Shown here piece after piece: positions 30,309-48,414 of a stretch of DNA of 64,000 bases; within the stretch, counting starts at the first letter, position 1; every line of letters begins with the position of its first letter. A model generated the notes under the pieces. It was given only the letters and a program-made list of their open reading frames with translations. It searched no databases and was not told the DNA's origin. The position numbers were made by a program, and so were the translations under genes. The DNA is from Psychrobium sp. MM17-31 (GTDB taxonomy: Bacteria > Pseudomonadota > Gammaproteobacteria > Enterobacterales > Psychrobiaceae). The DNA lies in NCBI RefSeq assembly GCF_022347785.1, contig NZ_JAKRGA010000009.1:1-64000 (forward strand), in the 5' to 3' direction.

Positions 30309-30810
30309 TAATCAAAATGCCACTGTTTCCGATATTGAAATGCAGCAAATATCACGTTCATTGAGAACTGAAGAATTATTAGAAACACCTATGATTCCGC
30401 CACAAGCTGTTTGGGAGAGAATTGAAGCGACGATCGATGAAAATATTACTAAAGAGCGTAATTTAAAAAAACGTTCTAGCCAGAATCGGAATAAAAGCTT
30501 TAATTGGGGAGCATGTGCAGCAGCTGTGACTGTAGCCGTTTCGTGTTGGATAGGATGGTCAAACTATCAATTACAAATGCAGTTCGCGTCTTTATTAGAA
30601 CAGAATCAGTATTTGGAACAACAATTGTCTAAGCCGGGATTTACATCTTACTCAGAGGCAAACTTGATGCAGGATTTAGACGGAATTGAACTTCAACTAT
30701 TACAGGCTTCGAGTAAAGAAGAACGTTTAGCACTATTAAAACAACGTCGAAAAAATATTGAAAAGCTTATAGATATCCAAAAAGGTAAACCTCAAGAGTT
30801 CTATCTGTAA
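30295..30810 (+). CDS. Putative anti-sigma factor, single TM
   Basis: A 171-residue protein with a cytosolic N-terminus containing PPQAVWERIEATID (compare PPTEAWETISRAI in the second cassette). A single membrane segment follows at about 73-90, then a periplasmic coiled coil rich in Gln/Leu/Glu. It has no zinc-binding HxxxCxxC motif, so it is not a ZAS-type anti-sigma. Its place directly after, and overlapping, the sigma gene is the main argument for an anti-sigma role. Confidence 0.75.
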   Translation: MSPINNQNATVSDIEMQQISRSLRTEELLETPMIPPQAVWERIEATIDENITKERNLKKRSSQNRNKSFNWGACAAAVTVAVSCWIGWSNYQLQMQFASLLEQNQYLEQQLSKPGFTSYSEANLMQDLDGIELQLLQASSKEERLALLKQRRKNIEKLIDIQKGKPQEFYL

Positions 30811-30846
30811 ACAACGTTTTAATAACAACATAAAAAGGAAAGTAAA

Positions 30847-31356
30847 ATGAAAAAATTAATATTAGCCAGTGCTTTGGGATTGTGTAGCTTAGCAGCGCAA
30901 GCGAGTGAATCAAACGTATCGGTTGAGTTTGTTCAACCCGAACGTTATCAAGATATTAACGCTAGTGGTAATCAAAACCAGGCACGATATCAAGAACGGT
31001 TATTTAAGACGCTGGAAAAGCAATTTCAGGAGTCAGCAAATGACTTGCCAAATGGAATGACACTTGACGTTAAGGTTCTGGATATTGATCTAGCCGGTGC
31101 AGTTGCAATGGGATTGGGAATGGGTCAGGACATCCGTCAAGTTTCGGACAAGGACTTTCCGCGTATTCTGTTTTATGTTGTGTTGAAAGATCAAAACGGA
31201 AAAATCTTATTGCAGGGTAAGCAAAATTTACGCGACGCTAATTTACGCCACAATGAATTTAGATTACGTGGTAGCCAGTCTGATTTCTATATGGAAACAG
31301 CGATTGTTAAAAAGTGGTTTGACGGTGCACTTATTCCAGCGGTCGCAAAGCTATAA
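30847..31356 (+). CDS. DUF3016-family secreted protein
   Basis: A 169-residue periplasmic protein with signal peptide (about 1-19, AAQA-SE). The mature part fits DUF3016: NVSVEFVQPERYQDINAS at the start, LDVKVLDIDLAGA in the middle and a conserved C-terminal region (LRDANLRHNEFR, VKKWFDG). The function of the family is unknown. It is the third gene of the plus-strand ECF cassette. Confidence 0.87.
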   Translation: MKKLILASALGLCSLAAQASESNVSVEFVQPERYQDINASGNQNQARYQERLFKTLEKQFQESANDLPNGMTLDVKVLDIDLAGAVAMGLGMGQDIRQVSDKDFPRILFYVVLKDQNGKILLQGKQNLRDANLRHNEFRLRGSQSDFYMETAIVKKWFDGALIPAVAKL

Positions 31357-31379
31357 GAAGAATTACTAGAGGAATAGGG

Positions 31380-31400
31380 TAACAGAACTGTTTTCTGTTA
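31380..31400 (+). promoter_or_regulatory. Intergenic hairpin TAACAGAA/TTCTGTTA
   Basis: Perfect eight-base arms around a five-base loop lie between the DUF3016 gene and the large PDZ gene. There is no T run. It may be an attenuator or an mRNA-processing site. Confidence 0.35.
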
Positions 31401-31421
31401 ATTCAACTCAAGGTGGAAATT

Positions 31422-33020
31422 ATGAAATACGCAAATCAATTACTCTTAATCGGTTTGTTTGGTGTTGGGACCAATCAAGCGATCGCATCACAGTCTTGTT
31501 CATCAATGACAATATCGGACACTGCGAATAATGCGGTTTTTGAGTTAGTCGGTCATAACATGAATCGTGTTTCTGAAAGACGACGGATGTCAGAACGATT
31601 ATTAGATGAGCAGAGCTTTACCCTAGAACCAGGTAATCATACGATGACTTTTTATCGTTGGGATAAATCAAAGTTGCGAGGTGTATTACGCAATCCTCAG
31701 TTTTATTCCGGTATTAAGGCTGAGCCTGTCACAATTTCTGTAAACGTTGAAGCAAATAAGCATTACCAGCTGATTAATTCGTTGAAAGATAATAAATCTG
31801 TACTCGAAGTTGTATCAGTAACTAACAAAATATGTGATAACGATAAAAAGCTAAAAGCTCAAGCAAATGGTGGGATTGCCAAGGTTATTTTGCCAGAGTT
31901 AATTCAATATCGATTGGATTTGCTAATGGAAGAAATCAATCGCACTGGTGGTTCAAAACCGAATGTCATACCAACTAATGTCGTTAGTTATTTTGGTGCA
32001 ATAGTTAAGCCAGCAACTAATAATAAAATGGTTATTTTAGCCGTATCACCATACTCCTTAGCAGATAAAATGGGGTTAAAAACTGGCGATAATATTACTC
32101 ATTTGGGGGGAAACTCTATTACATCGTTGAGTAATGAAAGCAATTCGCCATTAACTGACTATTTAGAGCAATTACGAGATGGCGCAATAATGGAAGTAAC
32201 CGTTGAACGCTCTGGAGAACAACTTGTAATGTCTAAGCGGTTTGATGTAAAGGTTGTCCCAGAGATTCAATATAGTTTTGCAACTAATGAACTAAAAAGA
32301 CCTGCTCTAGTTAATAGTTCTAGTTTGCTTCCTGAGCTCGATCGAAAATTGGATAAGTTATTAATTGAAATTAGTGACCTACCTGAGCTAAAACATCGTG
32401 AAAATTTGAAACAGTTACGCATAGAAAGAGCAAAGTCATACGATAAGAAATATGGCATTACTGGTGAGATGGCTCAAACTAGAGATGGTTTTATAGTTCA
32501 TCGTGTTAAAGCCAATAGTGCCGCTGATAATGTTGGCATACGCGCCGACGATGTCATTGTGGATTTTAACGGCGCAGATCTCAATGGTTTAAGTATCGCT
32601 GAAGTGTCAGGTATTATTTCTGATGTAAATGTTGGTGAGAAATATTCTCTAACGGTATCGAGAAATGGTCAGTTAATTGATCTTTCAGGAACGCTAAACC
32701 CCTTAGAGCTTCCTGCGTATCAACTTGCAATCAATACAGATTCTATTAGTAAAGCTAAGAATATTTTAGCCAATGTGACTAAAATTGTCCCTGTTCGCCG
32801 GATCGATAGAGTACAGTCTGGTGAAATCATAGGGTTCTACTTTGACCCTTGGGCTACTAATTTAAGCCGCTTAAGTAATAGAGATGGTGACTTAACCGGG
32901 CGCAGAGCATTAAATTCCAAAAATGCGTCCAATACCGCATCATCTAGCCGAAGTAGCTCTAATACAAGTAGCGGCTCGTCAAACAGTAAGCCTTCAGGCG
33001 CGTCTAATACTAATAACTAA
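31422..33020 (+). CDS. Periplasmic protein with two PDZ domains
   Basis: A protein of about 532 residues with a signal peptide (IASQ-SC). The N-terminal domain of about 120 residues is bounded by cysteines (SCSSM, KICD) and has a PEGA-like beta pattern (LEPGNHTMTF, VEANKHYQLI). Two PDZ domains follow: one around 185-270 (ILAVSPYSLADKMGLKTGDN) and one around 345-425 (VKANSAADNVGIRADDVIVD). The low-complexity Ser/Asn tail covers the last 35 residues. There is no protease domain, so it is not DegS/HtrA. The ATG at 31422 has AAGGTGG before it; a GTG nine bases earlier is less likely. Confidence 0.85.
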   Translation: MKYANQLLLIGLFGVGTNQAIASQSCSSMTISDTANNAVFELVGHNMNRVSERRRMSERLLDEQSFTLEPGNHTMTFYRWDKSKLRGVLRNPQFYSGIKAEPVTISVNVEANKHYQLINSLKDNKSVLEVVSVTNKICDNDKKLKAQANGGIAKVILPELIQYRLDLLMEEINRTGGSKPNVIPTNVVSYFGAIVKPATNNKMVILAVSPYSLADKMGLKTGDNITHLGGNSITSLSNESNSPLTDYLEQLRDGAIMEVTVERSGEQLVMSKRFDVKVVPEIQYSFATNELKRPALVNSSSLLPELDRKLDKLLIEISDLPELKHRENLKQLRIERAKSYDKKYGITGEMAQTRDGFIVHRVKANSAADNVGIRADDVIVDFNGADLNGLSIAEVSGIISDVNVGEKYSLTVSRNGQLIDLSGTLNPLELPAYQLAINTDSISKAKNILANVTKIVPVRRIDRVQSGEIIGFYFDPWATNLSRLSNRDGDLTGRRALNSKNASNTASSSRSSSNTSSGSSNSKPSGASNTNN

Positions 33021-33028
33021 TTGAAAAT

Positions 33029-33060
33029 ATTGCCTCCTTAATCGGAGGCAATTTTATTTT
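33029..33060 (+). terminator. Rho-independent terminator after the PDZ gene
   Basis: ATTGCCTCC and GGAGGCAAT form a perfect nine-base stem with a six-base loop, then TTTATTTTG. The right arm also contains GGAGG, the only ribosome-binding-like sequence ahead of the next gene. Confidence 0.82.
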
Positions 33061-33070
33061 GATAATATCT

Positions 33071-33526
33071 ATGAAACAATTAAGTACCTTTTTAGTAATT
33101 TTATTTATTGTTGTGGTTAGTGGTTGTAATTCAATGATTATAACGCCCGAGTTAGACAGTGGTAGCTATCGATTGGAGAGTTACAAAGCACCTGTAACTG
33201 ACATTAAAATGGATCAAATTTCATTGGCTTGTTATCAGGGAAGAGTTGCTGTTTGGCAACAAGGCTATAGGTTAAATCCGGAGCAAACAATGTTCCTTGT
33301 AAAAGCTCAATATCGCCATTTCTATGCATTGGTTGAGATGCAGGCGAATTTAGCTCCTGACAACCGTTATCGACTTAATAGGGCAATAGAAAAAGATGCC
33401 ATTGATATCTGGATTGAAAATGAGGTAACTGGCGAACGTGTCGCAAAAGCTAAAACAGTATTATTGAAATCCATGCCCGCCAATGGGTTGAAAATATCTC
33501 GCCGCGACTGTCAGCCTTATATCTAA
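33071..33526 (+). CDS. Putative lipoprotein of the ECF cassette
   Basis: A protein of about 151 residues with a lipoprotein signal (MKQLSTFLVILFIVVVSGC). The mature part has the LAPDNRYRLNR pattern, which recalls the KHYQLI/KQYRLLT strand of the neighbouring PDZ proteins, and two cysteines besides the lipidated one. The start is uncertain: ATG 33071 suits the signal, but a TTG at 33059 lies 10 bases behind GGAGG. It follows a terminator and so may be expressed by read-through only. Confidence 0.72.
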   Translation: MKQLSTFLVILFIVVVSGCNSMIITPELDSGSYRLESYKAPVTDIKMDQISLACYQGRVAVWQQGYRLNPEQTMFLVKAQYRHFYALVEMQANLAPDNRYRLNRAIEKDAIDIWIENEVTGERVAKAKTVLLKSMPANGLKISRRDCQPYI

Positions 33527-33643
33527 GTCCTTTTTCAATTAATTGTCTCGTCCTGAAATGTGTTTACACTTATAGGACGAGGCAAGTGACAATCGCATTC
33601 CCCGCCAATTTGTAACGGTCTTTAGCATCGAGATTAGTTATAA

Positions 33644-33669
33644 ATGAAAGTAAGCATGTTTACTTTCAT
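33644..33669. terminator. Hairpin between the two converging ECF cassettes
   Basis: ATGAAAGTAA and TTACTTTCAT form a perfect 10-bp stem around GCATGT. A second stem, CTCGTCCT/AGGACGAG, lies at about 33546-33582. Both are in the 186-bp gap where the two gene groups meet. Confidence 0.55.
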
Positions 33670-33712
33670 GTTTGATAACTTTGGCAAGATAATCTGAACA
33701 TTATCAAATGTC

Positions 33713-34738
33713 TCAGGATTTTATGCTTAAGGTCGTTGTAGGTATTTTCATCGAAGGAGGCATTGATTTTAAAATTTGTGGTTTGCCGGCTCGCAGTACT
33801 TTTATCACCATTTCTTTCCCTTCTTGATGACTAAATAATTGTTCTTTAAATAGCTGCAATGATTCTTCATAAGGTAGTTTACTATGCAGGCTTAGCTGAG
33901 ATATTTCACTGATTACATCTCCTTTTCTTAGCCCTAGTTGATGCGCAAGAGAATTGGGTAAAACTAACTTTACTCTTAATTGATTTATATGAGTTGGTTC
34001 TAGCAGTAACCCTACATTCTTTGCGATATGAGGAGGAATTTTAAAACTTAAATTATCAGCGGAAGATTGCTCTGAATTTAAATAGACGTAGATGTCCTGT
34101 GATAGTAGCTCCAACTTTTTTTGAATGTGAGCCGGTAGTTTATCAGTTGAACTGATCGGTGTTTGCATATCTAGCGCATGGAAAATTTCATCACTAGAGC
34201 ATTTCATATCCTTTTCAGAACGAACTTTCACTTCATAATAGTAAGACAAAGGGTTTTGTTTATTTTCTCGGGCGATAGTAAGAAGTCGGTATTGTTTGTT
34301 TGGATTCACTTTAATCTGAAAATTTATTTCATTACTTTTTCTGTTCGTTTTGTTGTATTTAGAGTGCGAAGGCAGATGACGCTCTTTGAGCTTACTGACT
34401 TTCTCATTGTGTTTTGAAGGATATTTAAGAGATGTATTATGAGGATTATTATCTAATCCCCGATAAGTCGTTGTGTAGTGCATTGGTCGGCTAGTCGAAA
34501 TACCTAAGCTTCTTTGAGCCGTAAAATTATGCAACCCTGGAGCCAGAGCTATTTTGCGTTTAGGTTTGGAAAAGTATTTCCCGTTGTGACTTGTTAATTC
34601 AATTGTGCCCCACTTTCCGGAAGGGGTGTGAAAATTGGTAGAAATATAGGCGCAATTGCTCTCTTGCTCTTGTGCTGAAACGGTTGCTAGCAATGGCATT
34701 GTTACTAATGATAGTAAAGTTATTAGTTTAATTTGCAT
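33713..34738 (-). CDS. Periplasmic PDZ-domain protein (cassette 2)
   Basis: A 341-residue protein with signal peptide (VSAQ-EQ). An N-terminal cysteine-bounded domain (SNCAY, MKCSSD) contains LAPGLHNFTA and VNPNKQYRLLT, the same layout as the large PDZ protein of cassette 1. A single PDZ domain sits at about 230-320 (LPNSLAHQLGLRKGDVISEI). No protease motif is present. The start has GGAGGG upstream. It is the last gene of the minus-strand ECF operon. Confidence 0.83.
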   Translation of the reverse strand: MQIKLITLLSLVTMPLLATVSAQEQESNCAYISTNFHTPSGKWGTIELTSHNGKYFSKPKRKIALAPGLHNFTAQRSLGISTSRPMHYTTTYRGLDNNPHNTSLKYPSKHNEKVSKLKERHLPSHSKYNKTNRKSNEINFQIKVNPNKQYRLLTIARENKQNPLSYYYEVKVRSEKDMKCSSDEIFHALDMQTPISSTDKLPAHIQKKLELLSQDIYVYLNSEQSSADNLSFKIPPHIAKNVGLLLEPTHINQLRVKLVLPNSLAHQLGLRKGDVISEISQLSLHSKLPYEESLQLFKEQLFSHQEGKEMVIKVLRAGKPQILKSMPPSMKIPTTTLSIKS

Positions 34739-34753
34739 GAGTACCCTCCTTAT

Positions 34754-35581
34754 TTAAGATTGAAGCTGTAGACGAATTGTTAGTTTTCCGAGCTCTTGGA
34801 GCTCTTGCTGCAAAGTCAATTTTTTATTGTTTCGAATTAATGTAATTCGAATGCTTTTTGCTAATGTTGCTTGTTTGAAGGCCATCTCTAGAGCATTAGT
34901 GGCTTCTTCGTATGTTTGGAGTCCAGTTATTGCAGCATTGTTGATTGAAACAATGGTATCCATTGTCTTTAATCCGATTAGGGATGCTGTCGAATGAGGT
35001 TTAATGCTATTAATGATTAAGCCTTCTTTGAGTGAGCTTTTTCTAGATATTGTAACGCCCAAGTATTGAGGATATTGGGGAGAAATTGAGATAAGGGGAA
35101 TCTGAGTTTTTCCGAGACTTTTATAATGAGCTATGAGTTCTAAAACAAGATCATCGAGTCTATAAGCAAGCGGGAATGGTAGTTCAGAGCCATTCGAATA
35201 TGTAGAGATAACGTCGAAATCGGAAGTGATTAGAGTTTTTTCCTGACCGCAGTGAAATATTGATTGTTTTGATTGGCTAAGCTGTAGTGGAGATTGCGGA
35301 TCATTAGTTGGGTTTAACGTAACTTTATAATGGTATCCAGCGGAGATCACCAATTCAATGGAAAAGGGAATGCTGTTCGTTGTTGCCCCTAAAAAGCCTG
35401 AAAATAAATAACGCCCGGTGTTAAACCTATAGTCATCTATCGAATTAACTGCATTGTGATTGATATGAGAAACTCGTACTTTGCCATACGTGTCGTCAAA
35501 TGAAATAAGCGCACAACTAGTTTCGCCCTTTATATAAAATGGAAATAATAAACTAGTAACCAGAATTAGTACTCTTAACAT
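34754..35581 (-). CDS. Periplasmic PDZ-domain protein (cassette 2)
   Basis: A 275-residue protein with signal peptide (about 1-19). It shares the cysteine-bounded N-terminal domain (SCALISFDD, FHCGQ) with AGYHYKVTL in the place of the KQYRLLT strand. One PDZ domain follows at about 170-265 (IKPHSTASLIGLKTMDTIVS). It lies nine bases after the anti-sigma-like gene and 15 before the second PDZ gene. Confidence 0.83.
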   Translation of the reverse strand: MLRVLILVTSLLFPFYIKGETSCALISFDDTYGKVRVSHINHNAVNSIDDYRFNTGRYLFSGFLGATTNSIPFSIELVISAGYHYKVTLNPTNDPQSPLQLSQSKQSIFHCGQEKTLITSDFDVISTYSNGSELPFPLAYRLDDLVLELIAHYKSLGKTQIPLISISPQYPQYLGVTISRKSSLKEGLIINSIKPHSTASLIGLKTMDTIVSINNAAITGLQTYEEATNALEMAFKQATLAKSIRITLIRNNKKLTLQQELQELGKLTIRLQLQS

Positions 35582-35590
35582 CTTTATTCC

Positions 35591-36013
35591 TTATATAAAT
35601 CTTTCTAATTGCTGTTCTTCGACAGAAAGTGCATTGATTAAATCTGTTTTGAGTTTAGTCAGTGCAACCCGATCTTCTATTTTTTCAGTTGTGGTAAGTA
35701 ATTCTTCTATTTCAATTATCCTTATTTCAATTTCTACAATTGGCATTGACTTGTAGGATATTGATGAAATTGAAACTGGTATTTGTTCATTAGTTGATAT
35801 CTGGCGCTGTGCTTTAAAGGTGTCCATAAAATAAGGGGCCAAGCATATAATAGATATTGCTGCAGCTAATGCTTGCCACTTTGTTTTATTTGATTTTTTA
35901 GGCTGAATTGCACGAGAGATTGTTTCCCAAGCTTCAGTCGGTGGCTCATAAGTTTGCAGCGTATCTAGTTCCTTTTGTAGCTTCCTAATATGACTTTCAT
36001 GATCCGTTGGCAT
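35591..36013 (-). CDS. Putative anti-sigma factor, single TM (cassette 2)
   Basis: A protein of about 140 residues. The cytosolic N-terminus contains PPTEAWETISRAI, like PPQAVWERIEATI in cassette 1. A membrane segment at about 47-63 (LAAAISIICLAPYFM) and a periplasmic, glutamate-rich coiled coil follow. The ATG at 36013 follows GGAG at normal spacing; a longer ORF from 36094 would overlap the sigma gene by 98 bases and is rejected. It overlaps the sigma gene by 17 bases. The anti-sigma role is inferred from position. Confidence 0.75.
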   Translation of the reverse strand: MPTDHESHIRKLQKELDTLQTYEPPTEAWETISRAIQPKKSNKTKWQALAAAISIICLAPYFMDTFKAQRQISTNEQIPVSISSISYKSMPIVEIEIRIIEIEELLTTTEKIEDRVALTKLKTDLINALSVEEQQLERFI

Positions 36014-36539
36014 AAGGATTCTCCAGTTGCGTTTTGCTGATGCTAGATAATGTTCTAGATACGATGCTTTTTGAATAGCTGGGAGACCTTTCAAATAGTG
36101 CCCCTAGTTCTTCATGGGTATAACCTTCAGCGATATATAGCCATAAAATTAATCGAGTTTGCGGTGGAACTCTTAGCATTATCCTCGTTAAGGTGCTTTG
36201 CTGTTCAATTGTGAAATGAATGTCTGAGTTATCGATGAGATCTTGGGTATCTGCTAATACGGTTTGTTGGTATTTCTCATTTTTTCTTAGCCAACTTATA
36301 GTTTTGTTATAGCTAATTTTTTTGCACCATGGAATAAAGTTTTCCGGCTCATTTAGCGAATCCAAACTGTTAAAGGCTTGGATAAAGGTCTCCTGCAAAA
36401 TGTCCTGAGCTGTAGAACGACAGTGACAAATTCGCAATACGGTTGAGTAGATTGTTGGTGATAGTCTTTGATAGCAAATAGAAAAAGCGCGTTGCTCGCC
36501 ATTTTTCATTTGTTCAAAAAGTTGAATATCAAAGCCCAT
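35997..36539 (-). CDS. ECF-type RNA polymerase sigma factor (cassette 2)
   Basis: A 180-residue sigma factor with region 2 (RSTAQDILQETFIQAFNSLD, FIPWCKKISYNKTISWLRK) and region 4 (IAEGYTHEELGALFERSPSY, SKSIVSRTLSSI). It is the paralogue of the plus-strand sigma at 29781. Its own upstream region has the TGCGACG element at the same distance. It heads the operon sigma, anti-sigma-like, PDZ, PDZ. Confidence 0.92.
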   Translation of the reverse strand: MGFDIQLFEQMKNGEQRAFSICYQRLSPTIYSTVLRICHCRSTAQDILQETFIQAFNSLDSLNEPENFIPWCKKISYNKTISWLRKNEKYQQTVLADTQDLIDNSDIHFTIEQQSTLTRIMLRVPPQTRLILWLYIAEGYTHEELGALFERSPSYSKSIVSRTLSSISKTQLENPYANGS

Positions 36540-38200: not shown

Positions 38201-39568
38201 CTATTCTACCCGTGCCTTCATCGCTTCAATATTAATAATTCCCGAGCGGTTTAAGGTGATTTTAAAGCGTTGGGAATATTGTTCACTACCACTACTTTGC
38301 ACCAGCACGACGTTTATTTGATAGCGTCGTTCTACCCCTTGTTGACTGATTTTCTGACCGTCGAGGGAGTACAATCTGCCTTCACCTTTTTTAAGATAGC
38401 GCACTAGCGGCGTAAGGTTGAACATTATTTGTTCTTGAATTTCGTCGTAGCCAGGTAAAAACTTCTTAGCGATAACCTTAGTATCACTGCGAAAATGAAG
38501 GATTTGCGCGGCTAGTCTGTTTTGATGACGCCGTTTATTAAAATGCCGCTGCACATATTCAGGTACACGTTTTTCTTTAATAAACTCCAACCACACGGTT
38601 TGTTTCGCCACCTTGGTTTTAGTGGCGCTGTTGGAAAACAGCTGTTGCCATTTAGGTAGCCCTCGTTGGATGCGCCGCCATATTGATTGAGTAATATCGT
38701 CTTTAAAGGTTTCTCGTAGGCCGTAAATAACCCCGAGAATAGCCACTAATACCAAGGTTACTTCGGCAAAAGATGAGCGGGCATTAAGTACTAACGCCAT
38801 CACAAACGCCATCATTACTGTCGTGACACCGCCGCGGACAAAGCGTTTTAAGTTGCGATTAAGATGACGCATGTCTTTGTTAAATACGACGCCGTATTCG
38901 ATTAATCGCTGTAATAGGCGCATTTTATTGGTGATCCGGTTGGGATCATCTAGCGTGATTTGCGAGTTGTATTGATTGCTCTCGCGATAGCTATTTTCAT
39001 CGCGGCATAATTGCAGCAATTGCTCACGAACTTCTGAATTTTCACTGGTTTTCGGACCTTTTGCCAATAACTTTAGGAATGATTGCTCCACATGCCAGCT
39101 AAGGTAGTTGTCGGCATTTTCGTGGTATGACTTAAATTTCTTATCGCTGGGCGTATTACGTCTTAGCTTCTTCAATAAGTTTTTGCTTTGTTCGGCTAAC
39201 TCTAATGCTGTTGGATAAAACTCATCACTTTCTCGTTGTTGCAGTGCTTGTTTGATGTCGATATCGAGCGCGGTTTTAATTTGATAACAAAACAGGTTGA
39301 GGTTTACGCGATATTCGTCTTGCTGGCCTTTTTTAGCGCTGATAAAGCGACTGCGGACTAACGGCAAATGCAATTGATCAGAATAATAGGCAGAGCGTGT
39401 TTTAATACTGGAATGAAAGTAATCTGCTTCGTCGAGAGTTTGCGGGCTAATTCCCATTTCATTGGGCAGAGAAAAATAAAGATCGATGCGTTGTTGAGCT
39501 TGCGGCAGCAGTTGGTGACGCAATGTAAAAGAAAGGGCTTCGTCTTGACTTAACTTGGTTATTTTCAC
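38201..39568 (-). CDS. Two-TM protein divergent from the condensin-like operon
   Basis: A 455-residue protein. The N-terminal 235 residues and C-terminal 170 residues are soluble and charged. They flank two membrane segments at about 244-280 (VTTVMMAFVMALVLNA and VTLVLVAILGVIYGL) with a very short loop, so both large domains face the cytosol. No known domain is recognised. It is divergent from the SMC-like gene across 169 bases, so it could share control with that system. The functional link is inference. Confidence 0.8.
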   Translation of the reverse strand: MKITKLSQDEALSFTLRHQLLPQAQQRIDLYFSLPNEMGISPQTLDEADYFHSSIKTRSAYYSDQLHLPLVRSRFISAKKGQQDEYRVNLNLFCYQIKTALDIDIKQALQQRESDEFYPTALELAEQSKNLLKKLRRNTPSDKKFKSYHENADNYLSWHVEQSFLKLLAKGPKTSENSEVREQLLQLCRDENSYRESNQYNSQITLDDPNRITNKMRLLQRLIEYGVVFNKDMRHLNRNLKRFVRGGVTTVMMAFVMALVLNARSSFAEVTLVLVAILGVIYGLRETFKDDITQSIWRRIQRGLPKWQQLFSNSATKTKVAKQTVWLEFIKEKRVPEYVQRHFNKRRHQNRLAAQILHFRSDTKVIAKKFLPGYDEIQEQIMFNLTPLVRYLKKGEGRLYSLDGQKISQQGVERRYQINVVLVQSSGSEQYSQRFKITLNRSGIINIEAMKARVE

Positions 39569-39737
39569 TAGTAGATAGGTACCTCTTTTTTATCTATCTG
39601 AATGCACTACCTTACCGCTATAACAAGCACTTAGCAATGCTAACGGTTCAAATAATGACTCGACGGCTTGCGTTTCCTTGAATCGGTTAAAAATCCCTAT
39701 ATTATGTGTGTCAAATGGATGCTTATCTGAGGTTTCA

Positions 39738-42700
39738 ATGGCAAGTTTGCGCCGCATTATTCTTATTAATACTCACCTGCCGGGCGTGGTGGAATTATCT
39801 CTCGATGGCCACACCAATATCTGTGGTACCAATGCATCGGGTAAAACGACTCTACAACGTTTAGTACCGGTTTTTTATGGTGAACTGCCAAGCCGAGTTG
39901 TACCCAAAACGCGTAGCAAGTTCGGTGACTTTTACTTACCGAAATCTAACAGCTACTTGGTGTATGAATATCAGCGGGAAGAAGGGGATTTATGCCAAGC
40001 GGTACTAACGCATACTGCAAAAGACGGCATTAGCTACCGATTTGTCGATGCTGCTTATGATAAGATTCAGCTGTTATTCCAAGAAAGTAATGGCAAAGTT
40101 AAAGCCTTTGAGTCTGATCAATGGCTTACTCAATTATCGTCACTTGAGATTAAATACTCGCGTAAGATAAGCGCTACTAGTGAATATCGCGCTATCGTTC
40201 AAAACGATGTTTCGTCATTGCGTGGTAATACGCAAGATGGCATTAAACTGCGCCAATTAGCAGCCCGCTATTCGTTGGTTGCACCGCGCCATAAGGTGCG
40301 TCACCTCGAAAAACTCGTTAGTGCCGTGCACGCCAAAGAAGGCAAGATGGACACGCTAAAAACCATGTTGGCGGCAATCTTCGAAGAAGATGGGTTAGTG
40401 CAGCCAACAACACGTGTTAAAAACACCAAGGCACGTGAATGGATCAAGCAAATGCGTCAATCGATGCGCCTGAGTTCGCTTGAGCAGCAACATGAAAAAG
40501 TACAGCAGATCGCCACCAGTTTAAATGCAATCGAAGCACAATTACTGCAATTAACCCCATTATTGAGTGATGATTTAGAACGCAGTAAAACCGAGCGTGC
40601 GGATCTACAGGCTAGTGACAAAGATTTACGCGATAAGATCTCCGCTCTTAAAACTAATTTCCATGAAGCTGAGTCTAATATCAACAGTGAACTTAGTAAG
40701 GCCAATGCCGAGCTAAAAACCACTGAGCAACAACTCGATGAGCTGCAAACGACTTATGATAATTACCAAGATGGTGATTACGAACAGTTGGCCATTGATA
40801 CCGATGCGCTGCCATTGTGGAATGAAGAGCTGGTGGAGCAACAAAGTCATTACCGCATTCTGTTAGAACAATTTGGTGAATTAGAGCAGCAGCTTAATCA
40901 GCAAAAACTCACCCTTAATGAGTCATTAGAACGCCTGACGGTTAAAAACCGCAAACTGATTCGCGAGCACGAAGAAAACCGTGAGAAAACGCGTCAGCAG
41001 CAAAGTGATAAAAAAGACGAATTATCTGAGCAATACCTCACCCGTAAAGAGCAACTCACTGAAGATTTTGATGGCCAAATTGCGATATTTAGGCATCAGC
41101 AAATCGAGCGCCAAGCGCAAATCGATAACATGGGACCAACGGCGCAAGAGCAAGAAGACCTGTCTTTAAGCGATAAGCGTCTTGAGCTAGCGCAAGATAA
41201 CTGGCGTCATACTAGTGACCTATTGGCGAAGAAAGAGCGCGAACATCAAAATGCGCGCAATGAGCAGCATAAAGCGCAAACTAAGCTAGAAAATGCGCGA
41301 ACTAGCGTGCATCAGTTGCAAAAACAACTGAGATTGTTAGAGCAGCAAATTTCACCTGAGCAAGGCTCACTGCGTCATTTCTTACGCGCCAATGTCGATG
41401 GTTGGGAAAACTCTATTGGTAAGGTGATTAATCAAGAGCTATTAGAGCGCTTAGATCTTCATCCGCAAATTGGCGACAGCCACAGCGAACTTTATGGCGT
41501 AGCGCTAAAACTCAGTGAAATCGATGCGCCGAGCTATGCTCAAGATGAAGCGGCGCTGCGTATTAACAAAGAAGAGTTAGAGCGCAAGGTATCTGCTGCA
41601 CTCGATGCGCAAAGTGAATGCGAAGTTGGCCTAACACTCGCTCACAATGCGGTGAAAGCCTTGGCAGATGAAGTCGCTAAGCTTAAACAAACACAGACCG
41701 AGCAAGCCAACGAAGTAAATTTCGCCAAAGAGTCGAAACAGCGCTTACAACAAACCAATAAAGAAAGTTTAGCGGCACGTCGTAAGGCGGCGAGTAGCGG
41801 CCTAGATGAAGCAAACGCGCAAATCAAACAGCTAAGTGAGCAAAAACGCGAAGCATTAGCCACGCTCAAAGACGATCATCACGCGCAGCTATTAGAGTTT
41901 AAAGCCGATTGGCAGCAAGAAATCGACGCCATTAGCAGCCAAATTAGCGAACTTGAGGCGCAAGTTGATCACAAGCGTCAAACCAATAAGGCGCAGATTA
42001 AACAACTAGAAGAGGCCTTTAAGCTTGAGCTGGCCAATAAAGACATCGATCCTAAGACTATTCAGGCGCTAAAAGAGCGCATTAAGCAACTTGAAGAAGA
42101 TATTGCTCGCGTGCGTTCACGCCAAGATGATTTACGTGAATATCGCAACTTTATTAATGTGTTGTGGCAAAAATCTCGCCCGCAATATCTAGAGCAAGAA
42201 GCTAACCTAAAAGCGTCAATTCAAAGCTTAACCGGTAAGCTTAATCAGCAGAAGACTGAGTTTAAACAAGCGCGCCAGAAACTTGAAGACGAGCGCGAGC
42301 AGCTGCAAACAGATATCGCTCGTTTATCTAAATTGATTGAACAATTGCTACCGCTTACTACTAAGTTGGGCCAGTTAACGATAGATGCCAAACTGATTGT
42401 CGGCTTGCCGCCAATACAAGGGGATCAAGACGAGCGCATTACTCGCGCCACTCATGGCTTAGAACAGCGTAGTAAGACAGAAAATACCTTAAAAGATAAG
42501 ATTTACACCCTTGAGGCTGAGTTGTCGCAAGACGCGCAAAAGCAGTTCTTAGACTTGATGACCAGTGAGTTGTCACGTTTAGGTGAAGAGAGTGATTTAC
42601 GTGATCGTTTACCGATATTTAGCGATCTTCTACGTATTTTAGCCGACCAACAGCGTCAAATTTTAGAACAGGGCGAAACCATCGGTGGCGACTTGCACAA

Positions 42701-43403
42701 GTTTTTTACCGTATTTAGCGACATCAATCGCCGTATTGCGGGACAATCGAAGCGTTTAACCGCTGCGGTAAGTGATGATCTAACCCTTGATGGCATCAAT
42801 CGTTCGGAAGTGAAGATCATCTCAACCGTCGATGAGCTAAATTTCTGGCAACCACTAAAGCGTTTCTCAAGTTTGTATGAGCAGTGGAAAGAGACAGGCA
42901 AGGAGTTACCAACAGATGAGTATATTAACGCGTTAAGCGATGTGGTTGATTTGTTGCGCGCCGATTCTAGCTACTCTATTGAATCGCTATTGCGCCTCGA
43001 ATTGCATCTTAATGAAGGTGGTAATGACTTGGTGATCAAAAACGATCGTCAGTTATTAGAGTCATCGAGTCACGGTATGGCTTACTTAATCTTATGTAAG
43101 TTCTTATTGGCCTTTACCCGTTTATTGCGTGGTGATGCGCAGATCAGCGTTAACTGGCCAATCGATGAAATTGGTACGCTGGCTTATCACAACGTTGAAA
43201 AACTATTTAACGCCTGTGACAGTAATAATATTTGCATCGTTGGTGCCTTCCCGAATCCAGAGTCTGATGTCTTAACGTTATTCAAGCACAGATATCTCAT
43301 CGACAAACAATACAAGCGCTTGCAGCGAATTGAACCGAAAGTGAATCGAATTGAAGCGAAAATCGCTCAGCAGCTGCAAAAATCTAGCGAAGGAGTTAAC
43401 TAA
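39738..43403 (+). CDS. SMC-like ATPase of a Wadjet/Mks-type condensin (JetC/MksB-like)
   Basis: A 1221-residue SMC-like protein. Walker A is GTNASGKT (30-37). Coiled coil rich in Gln/Glu/Leu/Lys spans roughly 250-1000 with an interruption near 540-600 that would be the hinge. At the C-terminus the signature SSSHGMAYLILCKFLLAF and Walker B NWPIDEIG complete the ATPase head, as in MukB/MksB/JetC. The ATG at 39738 follows GAGG; a TTG 60 bases earlier adds an unlike extension. Three genes follow with almost no gaps. Such complexes extrude and recognise small circular DNA for cleavage (Wadjet) or organise the chromosome (Mks). Confidence 0.9.
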   Translation: MASLRRIILINTHLPGVVELSLDGHTNICGTNASGKTTLQRLVPVFYGELPSRVVPKTRSKFGDFYLPKSNSYLVYEYQREEGDLCQAVLTHTAKDGISYRFVDAAYDKIQLLFQESNGKVKAFESDQWLTQLSSLEIKYSRKISATSEYRAIVQNDVSSLRGNTQDGIKLRQLAARYSLVAPRHKVRHLEKLVSAVHAKEGKMDTLKTMLAAIFEEDGLVQPTTRVKNTKAREWIKQMRQSMRLSSLEQQHEKVQQIATSLNAIEAQLLQLTPLLSDDLERSKTERADLQASDKDLRDKISALKTNFHEAESNINSELSKANAELKTTEQQLDELQTTYDNYQDGDYEQLAIDTDALPLWNEELVEQQSHYRILLEQFGELEQQLNQQKLTLNESLERLTVKNRKLIREHEENREKTRQQQSDKKDELSEQYLTRKEQLTEDFDGQIAIFRHQQIERQAQIDNMGPTAQEQEDLSLSDKRLELAQDNWRHTSDLLAKKEREHQNARNEQHKAQTKLENARTSVHQLQKQLRLLEQQISPEQGSLRHFLRANVDGWENSIGKVINQELLERLDLHPQIGDSHSELYGVALKLSEIDAPSYAQDEAALRINKEELERKVSAALDAQSECEVGLTLAHNAVKALADEVAKLKQTQTEQANEVNFAKESKQRLQQTNKESLAARRKAASSGLDEANAQIKQLSEQKREALATLKDDHHAQLLEFKADWQQEIDAISSQISELEAQVDHKRQTNKAQIKQLEEAFKLELANKDIDPKTIQALKERIKQLEEDIARVRSRQDDLREYRNFINVLWQKSRPQYLEQEANLKASIQSLTGKLNQQKTEFKQARQKLEDEREQLQTDIARLSKLIEQLLPLTTKLGQLTIDAKLIVGLPPIQGDQDERITRATHGLEQRSKTENTLKDKIYTLEAELSQDAQKQFLDLMTSELSRLGEESDLRDRLPIFSDLLRILADQQRQILEQGETIGGDLHKFFTVFSDINRRIAGQSKRLTAAVSDDLTLDGINRSEVKIISTVDELNFWQPLKRFSSLYEQWKETGKELPTDEYINALSDVVDLLRADSSYSIESLLRLELHLNEGGNDLVIKNDRQLLESSSHGMAYLILCKFLLAFTRLLRGDAQISVNWPIDEIGTLAYHNVEKLFNACDSNNICIVGAFPNPESDVLTLFKHRYLIDKQYKRLQRIEPKVNRIEAKIAQQLQKSSEGVN

Positions 43404-44023
43404 TGATCGAACATGGCCCATTATTAGAATCGCTTCTTGCTGGCGCGAGTATTTGTCAGGTGACTAACGAAGAAGCTTATCGTCGGCTATCCGATGAAGT
43501 AGTGCGTGAAGAGCTTAATCACTTCTTGCGACCACTGAATCGCCGTGTTGCTTCAAGCAGTGATAACAGCGTGTATTTCTTAGCGTATCAAGAGCTTAAT
43601 AGCGATGCTCGTGAGCATTTATCGAAAGAGTTTAAGCAGACTATTCAGTCGTTATTGCCATTGCTCGAATGGATGCAATTAGTACAAGAGAGTTTGGGGC
43701 GGGACGGCGCATTAAGTGCTGGCGATACCATTAAATTTCAAGAGTTTGCGCTGCGTACCGAAGATAACCAGTCGTTGCGTCAACGTTTTACTCAGCTTGC
43801 TAGCGATCGCTTTTTTAAATCGAGCAGCGACAATTTAGACGCGCAGCTAAAACAAGTTTTTAAACGTTTGAAAGAAACTGGTTACTTGCATCAGCCCCAT
43901 AAAGATCGTCAGTTTTATGTGGTAACAGGCAAAATTGAGCAGCTGGTGGAAATGGTACGCTTCATTAAAGATGAAGAGTCACTACCGCTTGATGATATGC
44001 CGCAACAAGAGTCGATGTTCTAA
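43403..44023 (+). CDS. MksE/JetB-like condensin subunit
   Basis: A 206-residue protein that overlaps the SMC-like gene by one base. Its size and position, and a winged-helix-like C-terminal half (LDAQLKQVFKRLKETGYLHQ then RQFYVV), match the MukE/MksE/JetB type, the dimeric subunit that binds the kleisin. Direct sequence identity to MukE is not obvious by eye, so the assignment rests on operon structure. Confidence 0.78.
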   Translation: MIEHGPLLESLLAGASICQVTNEEAYRRLSDEVVREELNHFLRPLNRRVASSSDNSVYFLAYQELNSDAREHLSKEFKQTIQSLLPLLEWMQLVQESLGRDGALSAGDTIKFQEFALRTEDNQSLRQRFTQLASDRFFKSSSDNLDAQLKQVFKRLKETGYLHQPHKDRQFYVVTGKIEQLVEMVRFIKDEESLPLDDMPQQESMF

Positions 44024-45270
44024 TGGCTCGCCGCAAGCAAGAGAAAGATCAAAGCCCACAGAGCCGCCTGCATGCGCTCGGTGTGGCGCGCCTAAATTTG
44101 ATTGGCAAGTACAGCTCGCAGTTGATGGATGCCTATATCAAAGGGCATTTTGACGAGACTAGTATCAATGATTCAGCGCTAGATAAACTGGTTAAAGGGC
44201 GTATTTTACATCGTCCCGATGAGTCGCAGCCGCTGAGTTTGCGCCCTGATATGAACGCGCTGATTGCCAGTCTTACCGAAGATGAGCGTAAGCGTCAGAT
44301 CAACGCTGATGTTGCAGGTCAGTTAGAGCAAATCCGCACCCTCGTGAAGCATTTTTCCGATGCCCAATATCGCGGTGATTATGTGGGGAGTGAGCATCAT
44401 TTCCAACTATTGACCGAGAAAGTGCACGATATGACGGGGCAGTTTAGCGACGCCATTGTTAGTCTGTGGAATCGTCTCAATTCCGATTTTGGTTTTGTGA
44501 GTAACTTGAGTGACAAGATTCGTGAGAATGAACTGGCTCAGAAACAGCTGCGTCGTCTACTTGATGGTTTTGAGCTCATCGATTTTAACGAGATGATTGA
44601 GCTAGCCCAAAGTAGTGGTCCGCTGCGTAAATTGCTGGTGAGTCAGTTACAAGTAGTAATTTCCGATCATTCTAGCTCATTACTTGAGGTGCAAAAGCGT
44701 CTGGTTGAGCTAATGGCGCGCTTTAGGCAGCAGCAAGAGCGTGCGCAGTTGATCAGCAATATGGCGGCGTTCTTAAAACAGCATCCAAAATTCGAAGTGG
44801 GGGATTATCCAAATCGCACCGTGGTGCCGGAGAATATTAATCACGCCGCGCCTATTATCGCCAGTGCCAGTGTCGCACTGGATCGCGTTGGCGATCAGCA
44901 GCCGCTAGGCGATATTGTACGTACCCTTGAGTTATCGACTAACGAATATGTAGAACCGCTAAGCAGTGGCGGCGAGTTTGATCTCGAAGAAGTATTAGCA
45001 GTTGAAGCCAAGCACCAACAGCTTAAAGAAGATGTCGAAAACTTCTTTATTAGCCTATTTGATAGCGAAGGCGTGGTGAGTGCTCTGGATTATCTAGAAC
45101 AAAGCAAGCTCGATTGGGATGGGGAAACTTGGTTGTTCCAAGTGATTGCTGAATACGAAGGGCTAGCGAGAGATATTCGCAAGCGTTTTGCCTTTGATAA
45201 AAAGTCGCACGAAACCAGTGTCTTTAACCAGCTGCACGTGATTGAAGATGTGCATTTGAGTGTGGTGTAA
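44023..45270 (+). CDS. Kleisin-like subunit (MksF/JetA-like)
   Basis: A 415-residue protein starting at the stop of the MksE-like gene. It is mostly helical, with a long central coiled coil (about 80-260), a short extended segment (about 270-310) and a C-terminal winged-helix-like domain. This fits the kleisin that bridges two SMC heads. The order SMC, MksE-like, kleisin is reversed compared with the classical jetABC and mksFEB orders. Confidence 0.75.
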   Translation: MARRKQEKDQSPQSRLHALGVARLNLIGKYSSQLMDAYIKGHFDETSINDSALDKLVKGRILHRPDESQPLSLRPDMNALIASLTEDERKRQINADVAGQLEQIRTLVKHFSDAQYRGDYVGSEHHFQLLTEKVHDMTGQFSDAIVSLWNRLNSDFGFVSNLSDKIRENELAQKQLRRLLDGFELIDFNEMIELAQSSGPLRKLLVSQLQVVISDHSSSLLEVQKRLVELMARFRQQQERAQLISNMAAFLKQHPKFEVGDYPNRTVVPENINHAAPIIASASVALDRVGDQQPLGDIVRTLELSTNEYVEPLSSGGEFDLEEVLAVEAKHQQLKEDVENFFISLFDSEGVVSALDYLEQSKLDWDGETWLFQVIAEYEGLARDIRKRFAFDKKSHETSVFNQLHVIEDVHLSVV

Positions 45271-45302
45271 AGTTGTCTCATTAAATCGAAGGAGTCATTT
45301 TC

Positions 45303-46199
45303 ATGGATGAAAACTTATCTAAACAGGCGCTTACCGAATTAACCAAGGCCTTTAAAGCACTACAGCTTGAAACAAGTTACAAAGCTAAGCGCAATGCCGC
45401 TTGGCTCAAGAAAACACTGGCATGGTGTGACGAGCACGCCATTAATCTCGGCCGCGAGGGCGATAGCAAACATTATTACATCGATCGAGATGGCATCCGA
45501 AAACTCGATGCTAAGCTGCAAAGTCTAGGTTATTCATCGCTAAGAGAATTCCAACAGGGAACCAGTGGCGACAGGTTGGATGCTGCCAAGGTTTCTCCCA
45601 ATGAAAAAGACGCTAAAGAGCTACCTACCGAGCATCTAGTGCTGGCGGCGTGCAGTGATTTATCAATGCGCCTTGCCTATCAGTCTTTGTTTCAACTTGC
45701 CGAATCACCTGCGCAAATTCAAATTGAGTTAGATATTCGTACATTGGACTTAGCGTCTTATGACTATTTGGTGGTGGTAGAAAATCGCGATTGTTTTTCC
45801 GCATGGCATCAGTATCAAATTCCAAGTGAGCTAGCTAACGCGTTAGTTGTTTATCGCGGCCACGAGAGCCATCATTCTAAAGCATGTCAAACTTTGAAAG
45901 CTCATTGGTTTGCGGAAAAAGGGCAACATGGGCAAGTATTTTTTGGTGATTATGATCCGCATGGTATGGGCTTAGCAATAGACGTGAAAGCGCCTTATCA
46001 ACATGTGCTGTTTCCTGATCTCGATTGGTTAAAGTGTAATCACGTATTTGGCCACTTTGATGAAAGCAAGGCATACTCAAAACGCTTCCAGCATGAACGT
46101 TGTCCAGAAAACTGGCTAGAGTTACTCGATGTTATGTATCAAAAAGAGATTGGACTGCGTCAACAATGGATGTTTGATACGCAGCTAAGACTTTACTAA
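45303..46199 (+). CDS. TOPRIM nuclease subunit (JetD/MksG-like)
   Basis: A 298-residue protein. Its C-terminal half has the TOPRIM pattern of JetD: the glutamate in LVVVENRDC (E160), then YRGHESHHSK, and the metal-binding FFGDYDPHG with D216 and D218. In Wadjet, JetD cleaves DNA after loop extrusion stalls. The N-terminal 100 residues look like a winged helix for DNA binding. The gene lies 32 bases after the kleisin behind GAAGGAG. Its last four bases overlap the convergent cytochrome b561 gene. Confidence 0.82.
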   Translation: MDENLSKQALTELTKAFKALQLETSYKAKRNAAWLKKTLAWCDEHAINLGREGDSKHYYIDRDGIRKLDAKLQSLGYSSLREFQQGTSGDRLDAAKVSPNEKDAKELPTEHLVLAACSDLSMRLAYQSLFQLAESPAQIQIELDIRTLDLASYDYLVVVENRDCFSAWHQYQIPSELANALVVYRGHESHHSKACQTLKAHWFAEKGQHGQVFFGDYDPHGMGLAIDVKAPYQHVLFPDLDWLKCNHVFGHFDESKAYSKRFQHERCPENWLELLDVMYQKEIGLRQQWMFDTQLRLY

Positions 46200-46998: not shown

Positions 46999-48414
46999 AT
47001 GGCTCAAGCTCCTTTTAAACCTAAGAAACAGAAAACGCCTAAAACCGATGCGCAGATTGAAGCGCTCAAGGTTCCGCCGCACTCGCTTGAGGCTGAGCAG
47101 TCGGTACTTGGTGGTTTGATGTTAGATAACGATGCGTGGGATCGCGTATCTGAGCTTGTTGTAGCCGAAGATTTCTATCGCCGTGATCACCGCATTATTT
47201 TTAAATACATGGCGGATTTGATTGAACACGGTAATCCTATTGATTTAGTTACCCTGTCTGAAGCCCTTGAGCGTGAGAATGAGCTCGATAGTGTTGGTGG
47301 CTTTGCTTACATTGGTGAAATGGCTAAAAATACGCCAAGTGCGGCGAACATTGCGGCTTATGCGACTATCGTTCGTGAACGTGCGGTTGTTCGTGACATG
47401 ATTGGTGTGGCAAATGAAATTGCCGAAGCGGGTTTCGAGCCAGAAGGGCGTGACAGTGCGGCACTACTAGATTTTGCCGAGGGTAAAGTTTTTAAAATCG
47501 CAGAGAGTCGTTCAAATGCCTCTGAAGGCCCGCAAGATATCAAGCAAATCTTGGCGTCGACTATCGATAAAATTGAAGAATTATATAACGCGCCAAATGA
47601 AGGTATTACTGGTGTTTCCAGTGGTTATGATGATCTCGACAAGATGACATCGGGTTTCCAAGAATCAGATTTAATTATCGTGGCGGCTCGTCCGTCGATG
47701 GGTAAAACTACCTTCGCTATGAATCTCGCCGAATATGCAGCGATGAACGAAGATAAGCCGGTAATTATCTTCTCGTTAGAGATGCCGTCGGAATCTATTA
47801 TGATGAGGATGCTGGCATCCTTAGGCCGCGTCGACCAAACCCGTGTTCGTACTGGTAACTTGGAAGATGAGGATTGGGCGCGTGTATCATCGACGATGGG
47901 CTTGTTGCTAGAGCAGGGCAAGATGTATATCGATGACTCTTCTGGCTTAACCCCGACCGAGGTTCGTTCGCGCTCTCGTCGTATCGCCCGTGAGCACGGC
48001 GGCGTATCGATGATTATGATCGATTACTTGCAGTTAATGCAGGTACCAGCCCTTGCCGACAACCGTACCTTGGAAATCGCCGAAATTTCTCGCTCGCTTA
48101 AAGCGTTAGCAAAAGAACTGAAATGTCCGGTTATTGCACTGTCACAGCTAAACCGTGGCCTTGAACAACGTGCCGATAAGCGTCCGATCAACTCGGATTT
48201 ACGTGAATCTGGCTCTATCGAGCAGGATGCCGACTTAATCATGTTTATCTACCGCGACGAGGTATATAACGATGATAGTCAGGAGAAAGGCACTGCGGAA
48301 ATTATTATTGGTAAGCAGCGTAACGGCCCTATCGGTAAGTGTCGTTTGACCTTCCAAGGTCAATTCTCTCGATTTGATAACTACGCAGGCCCTGCGTTTG
48401 ACGACGAATATTAA
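46999..48414 (+). CDS. dnaB: Replicative DNA helicase
   Basis: A 471-residue hexameric helicase that unwinds DNA at the replication fork. The N-terminal domain starts PPHSLEAEQSVLGGLML. The RecA-like domain carries Walker A in RPSMGKTTFAMN (about 231-242) and Walker B in MIMIDYLQLM. The C-terminal segment includes SQLNRGLEQRADKRP and DLRESGSIEQDADLIMFIYR. No intein interrupts it. It shares a TAATG overlap with alr, as in many gammaproteobacteria. Confidence 0.97.
   Translation: MAQAPFKPKKQKTPKTDAQIEALKVPPHSLEAEQSVLGGLMLDNDAWDRVSELVVAEDFYRRDHRIIFKYMADLIEHGNPIDLVTLSEALERENELDSVGGFAYIGEMAKNTPSAANIAAYATIVRERAVVRDMIGVANEIAEAGFEPEGRDSAALLDFAEGKVFKIAESRSNASEGPQDIKQILASTIDKIEELYNAPNEGITGVSSGYDDLDKMTSGFQESDLIIVAARPSMGKTTFAMNLAEYAAMNEDKPVIIFSLEMPSESIMMRMLASLGRVDQTRVRTGNLEDEDWARVSSTMGLLLEQGKMYIDDSSGLTPTEVRSRSRRIAREHGGVSMIMIDYLQLMQVPALADNRTLEIAEISRSLKALAKELKCPVIALSQLNRGLEQRADKRPINSDLRESGSIEQDADLIMFIYRDEVYNDDSQEKGTAEIIIGKQRNGPIGKCRLTFQGQFSRFDNYAGPAFDDEY

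Follow-up and report, generated by a model that had tools for sequence, protein, structure and literature searches.

In the window, a stretch of 64,000 nucleotides from Psychrobium sp. MM17-31 (contig NZ_JAKRGA010000009.1, positions 1 to 64,000), four genes at 39738-46199 encode an SMC-type ATPase (C), a KITE subunit (B), a putative kleisin (A) and a predicted TOPRIM nuclease (D). By homology and architecture they almost certainly represent a distinct SMC complex which is related to MukBEF, Mks and Wadjet and has the fixed order SMC-KITE-kleisin(-TOPRIM). The C-B-A core very probably has a function that is independent of D. With moderate confidence we read the whole as a chromosomal condensin, perhaps tethered to the sliding clamp, which would become a Wadjet-like plasmid cutter once D is present. 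A preliminary description of the sequence had reported the four open reading frames with their coordinates and overlaps, the Walker A and Walker B motifs of C and the TOPRIM residues of D; all of these were confirmed.

Gene order and distribution of C-B-A and D

DUF3584, the family of C, was found above the cut-off in 104 of 295 genomes of the bacterial order to which the window belongs. These yielded 101 usable loci from 100 genomes, with two loci in G280 and no usable C locus in G008, G024, G199 and G274. All 101 loci show the order C-B-A, and D was located behind A in 58 of them and not found in 43. The latter include L223, whose sequence ends behind A so that the absence of D is unsure, and two loci in genomes with a match to DUF7281, the family of D, elsewhere (G280 and G171). 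In L202 and L210 (f12) other genes separate A from D, which lies about 5 kb further downstream and was scored as present. Locus L100 received the automated order C-A-B, as its A frame begins a long way upstream, in GC-rich DNA; it holds only a short D-like start. L098 is a duplicate of L165 and was excluded from the tree and from the 116 set counted below. The order SMC-KITE-kleisin(-TOPRIM) is the fixed order of a distinct clade. The preliminary description had called the order C-B-A-D unusual and had considered a distinct Wadjet branch. The order does differ from jetABCD and mksFEB and marks a distinct branch, but inside its own clade it is a fixed rule, and the absence of D in 43 of 101 loci means that the branch is not simply Wadjet. 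D is facultative, and the chromosomally fixed core stands without it in these loci.

The numbers of loci with and without D were 7/1 in f1, the window's family, 5/6 in f2, 2/3 in f3, 12/10 in f6 (Shewanellaceae, including Shewanella salipaludis, L098), 0/12 in f7, 4/8 in f10, 20/2 in f12, 1/0 in f14, 2/0 in f16, 2/1 in f20 and 3/0 in f21. Named relatives belong to the Halomonadaceae, Pseudomonadaceae, Alteromonadaceae, Idiomarinaceae, Shewanellaceae, Ferrimonadaceae and Chromatiaceae; one Succinivibrionaceae contig (L107) holds C alone. DUF7281 was detected in 8 of 9 genomes of the window's family, in 64 of 295 of the order (61 above cut-off) and in 13 of 369 of the class (11 above cut-off). 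Proteins with JetD_C are scattered over the order (53 of 295 genomes), in some cases through D itself. One Shewanellaceae genome, G280, carries two copies, C-B-A without D and a distant C-B-A-D on a separate contig (L173 and L174).

The locus is fixed, and D is optional within it. Among the loci listed, flanking-gene clusters are common to members of a family with or without D. Cluster 10 lies downstream in 10 of 12 loci of f10, in two of them with D interposed (L066 and L190). In the Shewanellaceae, most loci have a symporter (cluster 1) behind A or D, clusters 2, 9 and 19 are common upstream and 4, 5 and 26 downstream in f12, and clusters 6, 7 and 8 are common to the loci of f2 (11 members each; f2 is based on cluster sizes and DNA alignments). 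In the window's genus the locus is bordered upstream by a 455-aa protein without known function (38201..39568, reverse strand; cluster 20 in 8 C-holding loci of the genus) and downstream by dnaB (46999..48414, forward strand; cluster 27 in 6 of these 8 loci), with alr next to dnaB. In the D-less genome G002 of this genus (L146), dnaB is located directly 3' of A. DNA alignments of close relatives show collinearity that stops at the end of A and returns downstream of D. L195 was clearly subject to a loss of D, because a degenerate piece remains where L190 has the intact gene. The D state changed at least 19 times on the C tree (115 rows). A replacement effector behind A in the D-less loci was considered and rejected: in the comparable rows the family-specific neighbours also follow D in relatives that have it (e.g., clusters 1, 4, 10 and 27), so no such effector is evident. 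Exchange of the whole operon occurs as well: in L056 and L057 of the window's genus the operon occupies the window's position, beside dnaB (89-90% identity to the window) and the upstream gene (71%), but its C can be matched to that of the window over 223 residues only, at 35-36% identity.

Two further loci were conspicuous. In a genome of the window's genus, C is split by one in-frame stop (L055:4407-8075); D of this locus is only 33% identical to D of the window, yet A is 75% identical. In L064, a second TOPRIM-like protein (L064:2643-3476; Toprim_2, 19 bits, cut-off 22.1) is encoded directly upstream of C, and the operon is thus flanked by two nuclease-like genes.

Purifying selection on C, B and A is strong with and without D, and D diverges faster. 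The ratio of nonsynonymous to synonymous substitution rates (dN/dS) of C, B and A in D-less pairs was 0.008-0.065 in f2, f6 and f10 and 0.075-0.147 in one pair of f3; among 10 D-less pairs it was computable for C in 7, for B in 5 and for A in 5. Pairs with D gave 0.019-0.046 for C (seven pairs) and 0.072-0.132 for D (six pairs); for the pair of the window and L058, the values of A and D were lost to saturation. Walker, signature and Walker B residues are intact in all 50 D-less C proteins. Identities of D and C are correlated (Spearman 0.67, 1953 pairs). In some Shewanellaceae pairs C is 82-89% identical and D 38-45%, which points to rapid change or replacement of D. Altogether, this pattern of selection suggests a core with its own function and an effector under other pressures.

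The core coexists with other condensins in several families. Among the 295 genomes of the order, SMC (TIGR02168) was above the cut-off in 133 and MukB (PF04310) was detected in 126, in a few of them weakly. In f2 (11), f6 (21) and f10 (12), the list of genomes with SMC is identical to that of genomes with C; in f7, the overlap is 12 of 22. All 44 SMC-carrying genomes drawn from f2, f6 and f10 have C-B-A. SMC and C occur together in f1, f2, f6, f10 and part of f7. The window's own genome encodes SMC (C3:308317-311763), ScpA and one C, and a search of it for the MukB N-terminal domain PF04310 gave no match. In f12, 23 genomes, all of one genus, are listed with C and none is in the SMC list; as the lists do not name all genomes lacking a match, f12 genomes without C could be in the draw. 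The sole MukB match in f12 is weak (G127, 23.8 bits, E 8.3e-5), and no full-length MukB was found. ScpA was detected in 0 of 21 f12 genomes and in 5 of 5 controls, and the SMC protein of the window's genome as a query likewise found 0 of 21 and 5 of 5 controls, the latter at 38-100% identity. C-B-A is possibly the sole condensin of f12, where divergent others could escape detection.

Mobile elements carry the system too. A tblastn search with C matched 45 plasmid records and one phage, of which 14 plasmids and the phage were opened. C-B-A-D is present on 12 of the opened plasmids, from Rhodoferax, Pseudomonas (two), Acinetobacter (three), Vibrio (three), Variovorax, Aromatoleum and Azospira; in the copy of a Vibrio campbellii plasmid, C and A are split. 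Dolichospermum phage Dfl-JY45, a cyanophage (L233, record 86907-93262), has a complete C-B-A-D annotated as hypothetical proteins. In L230 only the start of C is left, beside IS elements, and in L241 A and D were not found. Opened mobile copies that hold C-B-A thus have D in 13 of 13 cases, compared with 58 of 101 loci on chromosomes (Fisher p 0.0017, with non-independent rows). A further C-B-A-D copy on a Marinobacter plasmid (L232) was found via D and is excluded from the 13. Defence-gene neighbours of mobile copies are a methyltransferase and a helicase in L232 and HerA/DUF4297 in L239. The opened plasmid and phage records annotate the genes as ATP-binding protein, hypothetical protein or, twice, DUF2399, and one record is unannotated. 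A scan of viral contigs with C gave 321 pattern matches with no relative among them.

The four subunits

C (39738..43403, forward strand, as are all genes and motifs of the operon) has 1221 aa from its ATG; an alternative TTG start lies at 39678. It matches PF12128 DUF3584 end to end (Pfam, E 1.7e-240). The Walker A motif GTNASGKT is located at 39825..39848, with G30, N32, G35 and K36 as invariant columns, and the Walker B motif NWPIDEIG at 43152..43175, with D1143 and E1144 invariant. The Walker A pattern G-x-N-x-x-G-K-(T/S), the S and G of the signature and the D-E of Walker B are kept in 115 of 115 aligned homologues; the W position of Walker B is L in f12. Against sequences of the PDB, C of the window gave one ribosomal match (E 0.66), and for the C profile the best 60 of 124 matches were largely coiled-coil and ABC proteins. 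PADLOC-DB 2.0.0 gave marginal hits only, for C and D of the window and for C of one f6 relative. The best hit of C was JetC1 (3.3e-5), covering residues 1-42 only, that of D was JetD3 (7.9e-4), and A and B had no hit. The subunits are accordingly far from the known Wadjet models, in line with the divergence proposed in the preliminary description.

B (43403..44023, 206 aa) shares one base with C and one with A. It reached 23.6 bits (7.3e-5) against PF21980 MksE, under the cut-off of 27. Among 20 relatives, however, 19 match this family at E<=0.01, which bears out its description as MksE-like; 6 of 20 match DUF4194, a domain annotated in JetB. An excerpt of PMC10586767 describes an IFDR motif at the N-terminus of JetB that contacts JetD. 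A loose pattern of this motif was found in 0 of 116 B proteins (first 40 aa); of the 4 type I JetB, too, just 1 has it (first 60 aa).

A (44023..45270, 415 aa) matched no Pfam family above the cut-off. Its AlphaFold model was built from 12 sequences, with a mean predicted local distance difference test (pLDDT) of 75.7 and a predicted template modelling score (pTM) of 0.40. The first four PDB matches of the model are chains of 9gm7 (MukBEF), 7nz2 (MukBEF-MatP), 8q72 (JetABCD) and 3euh (MukE-MukF), with E of 1.4e-3 to 2.9e-3. By their lengths the matched chains would be MukF and JetA, and given this identity A is probably a kleisin of the MukF/JetA type, as the kleisin-like label it had been given implied.

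D (45303..46199, 298 aa) follows A after a gap of 32 bases and matches PF23947 DUF7281 (Pfam, 1.2e-26). The TOPRIM glutamate E160 (45780..45782) and N161 are present in 66 of 66 D homologues, and D216-x-D218 (45948..45956) in 65 of 65 where aligned. The D model, from 8 sequences (mean pLDDT 73.9, pTM 0.57), has an N-terminal helix-strand part and a C-terminal part bearing the TOPRIM residues. HHalign of the D profile with nine JetD proteins gave a probability of 92.3%, with the TOPRIM portion aligned only. Several D proteins are above the JetD_C cut-off of 22 bits (G185 32.6, G106 26.2, G074 25.0, G091 24.2 and G196 23.0). The C-terminal R-L-E-Q-E is invariant in the nine JetD, where D of the window reads R-Q-Q (correspondence by eye); the first position of E-Q-E is K, Q, T, R, M or a gap in D (63 of 66 residues listed). 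Against PDB sequences, D of the window had no match, and its profile gave three ribosomal matches and one to Topo VI-A at E 1-2 (Topo VI-A E 1.1). One of 20 D members matches TOP6A-Spo11_Toprim. The DUF7281, HHalign and JetD_C matches, together with a weak Foldseek match given below, bear out that the last gene encodes a TOPRIM protein related to JetD/MksG. By fold and profile searches, A groups with MukF/JetA, B with MksE and D with MksG/JetD.

Upstream in the window, at 29781-36539, lies a region of low GC (about 0.36-0.39) with two sigma-70-family genes and several PDZ-domain proteins, in convergent groups.

The C-terminal tail of B

When 20 B proteins are aligned, five columns are invariant, and one of them is the glutamine five residues from the end of B in the window. 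It belongs to the C-terminal pentapeptide QESMF (44006..44020), which resembles the binding motif for the beta sliding clamp. The consensus given in an excerpt of PMC3716654 is QL[S/D]LF, with a highly conserved glutamine and a more usually C-terminal position in translesion polymerases. A loose pattern, Q..[LMI][FLIVMWY] within the last 12 residues, occurs in 110 of 116 B proteins, compared with 0 of 116 A, 1 of 116 C, 6 of 66 D and 11 of 697 flanking proteins. The strict pattern Q..[LM][FL] was found in 85 of 116 B versus 7 of 697 flanking proteins. In 80 of the 110 B proteins the motif is the very end and follows a variable linker. The controls lack the pattern (0 of 14), namely type I JetB (0/4), KITEs of short-SMC systems (0/8), a putative type III B (0/1) and a putative MukE (0/1); the last two (L086, and L257 before mukB) are unannotated and were assigned by place and size. 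The tail is kept in 48 of 50 D-less and in 61 of 65 D-containing loci and is therefore not merely a docking site for D. As it resembles the clamp-binding motif, we propose that B binds the clamp. Tethering of the complex to the beta sliding clamp (DnaN) by the B tail is about as likely as not. In the literature on MukE, clamp and condensin, titles and the starts of abstracts report no clamp-bound KITE.

Interpretation and comparison with known systems

The following mechanism is proposed. The B tail would recruit the complex to DnaN on replicating or newly replicated DNA, where C-B-A, driven by ATP, may extrude loops and so organise chromosomal DNA. D would act as a metal-dependent endonuclease. 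With D present, full extrusion of a small circle might present the DNA to the TOPRIM nuclease, which would cut it as JetD does in Wadjet. For Wadjet, excerpts of PMC12287153 and PMC10586767 describe cleavage of small circular DNA by the nuclease upon complete extrusion. By this analogy C-B-A-D probably restricts plasmids, and the four-gene version of the window would do so in addition to its role on the chromosome.

Part of the evidence would also fit simply a further Wadjet type, in which C, B, A and D act only jointly against plasmids and the D-less loci are decaying remnants. D is related to JetD/MksG and evolves fast, all 12 opened plasmid records found via C and holding C-B-A as well as the phage hold D, and some mobile copies adjoin other defence genes (L232 and L239). 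The D-less cores do not appear decayed, however: their ATPase residues are intact in 50 of 50, their dN/dS values are 0.008-0.147 where computable, and C-B-A is common to the 44 genomes with SMC that were drawn from f2, f6 and f10. Such a Wadjet type is therefore unlikely, and as the whole answer an ordinary one is rejected in view of the D-less, constrained cores. Somewhat less probable still is a housekeeping chromosome machine throughout, with D as a chromosome-processing enzyme (Topo VI-A/Spo11-like cutting of tangles) and no defence nuclease. It could account for the genus of f12, which has no other detectable condensin and D in 20 of 22 loci, and for the weak matches of D to Topo VI-A and TOP6A-Spo11_Toprim. 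On the other hand, the presence of D varies between close relatives, its divergence outpaces that of C, B and A, as in the f6 pairs mentioned above, and mobile copies carry it.

Several results weigh against a chromosomal condensin with an optional plasmid-cutting nuclease, the reading we prefer. The D state is clustered on the tree: its 19 changes are fewer than in every one of 200 shuffles, which need a mean of 37.8 (minimum 30) when free and 26.6 (minimum 21) within families; the state is accordingly inherited in part, yet it changes often. Except in L195, where it was lost, D may have been either gained or lost, e.g., in L066 and the loci of f2. The retention of D in 20 of 22 loci implies that it is perhaps not dispensable in f12. 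Comparisons of the C, B and A profiles with type I JetC, JetB and JetA gave probabilities of 2.3, 1.5 and 0.6, none of them significant, with two-sequence profiles, and this places the clade far from type I Wadjet. For D, the other four of five models were poor (pLDDT 56-59), and the Foldseek match at rank 1, 8b7f, a nuclease from C. glutamicum which we take to be MksG, is weak (E 0.15, probability 0.25). E-Q-E of JetD is mostly x-Q-(E/Q) in D, with E at position 288 in 37 of 66 and Q in 28 of 66. As to the clamp, most B tails have E, G, R or S where the consensus has L at position 2, and only 7 of 12 B clusters (at 50% identity) and 7 of 14 mobile copies contain the tail motif. Its lack in the other 5 clusters and 7 copies could also mean that the tail is an internal dock in the SMC complex, e.g., for the SMC head or the kleisin, and no clamp ligand. 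Short conserved tails can also make internal contacts. The dock is possible and somewhat less probable than the clamp, since the pattern is that of a clamp motif behind a variable linker and is absent from type I JetB, short-SMC KITEs and the putative type III B and MukE despite their homologous partners.

If the preferred reading of a condensin with an optional nuclease is extended, the complex would be a fourth bacterial condensin family, clamp-tethered via its KITE tail, the only condensin of at least one genus, and switched in place between folder and plasmid cutter by one nuclease gene; we offer this as a tentative proposal. An excerpt of PMC10586767, a review, suggests that defence SMC systems and chromosomal condensins have each evolved from the other. 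In the present clade, related species show one or the other state at a shared locus and with a common set of core proteins, and the transition can therefore be tested by deletion or addition of one gene. A clamp-binding KITE, if true, would provide a route of SMC loading independent of both ParB and a DNA sequence. A genus that retains C-B-A and in which neither SMC-ScpAB nor MukBEF can be detected would be a new model of chromosome folding. The family is easily overlooked, as hits in PADLOC-DB are marginal and the annotations in mobile records uninformative. No paper on DUF7281 and no title on DUF3584 about a C-B-A-D system was found in the literature; earlier condensin papers may describe the clade.

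Like Wadjet (JetABCD, types I-III), the system has SMC, KITE, kleisin and TOPRIM nuclease encoded in a single operon. D can be aligned with JetD over the TOPRIM and contains its E and DxD, some D proteins pass JetD_C, and two on plasmids are annotated as DUF2399. In contrast to Wadjet, the order is C-B-A-D instead of A-B-C-D, the PADLOC models are only marginal (best 3.3e-5, with none for A and B), and D has 298 aa versus 382-413 in the compared JetD and does not keep E-Q-E. Furthermore, the nuclease accompanies the SMC core in Wadjet whereas D was not found in 43 of 101 loci here, and the B tail pattern is absent from the four type I JetB.

With MksBEFG (mksFEBG) the system shares the membership of B in PF21980 MksE, and a DUF7281 nuclease is common to it and to short-SMC systems of the order A-B-C-D. 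The order is reversed here, SMC-KITE-kleisin(-nuclease), compared with the canonical F-E-B-G given in an excerpt of PMC10123090, and the SMC has about 1220 aa instead of 917-978 aa. Short-SMC systems (917-978 aa) with DUF7281-like nucleases were observed in L080, L082, L084, L089 and L090, with the order A-B-C-D by size and place, and in L085 and L088, with the order D-C-A-B. Those tested gave marginal PADLOC hits to JetC, and the nuclease of L088 matches JetD1 at 5.1e-8. Their KITEs lack the B tail pattern (0/8), and both of the two tested match MksE.

The gene order of MukBEF is mukFEB. The system is similar to it in A, for which chains of MukBEF or MukE-MukF are at ranks 1, 2 and 4, and differs in gene order, in the frequent presence of a nuclease gene and in the lack of a MukB domain match in its own genome. 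From SMC-ScpAB it is set apart by C, which reaches 22.7 bits against SMC_prok_B (TIGR02168), below the cut-off of 567.35; in common with SMC-ScpAB, it appears to be chromosomally fixed.

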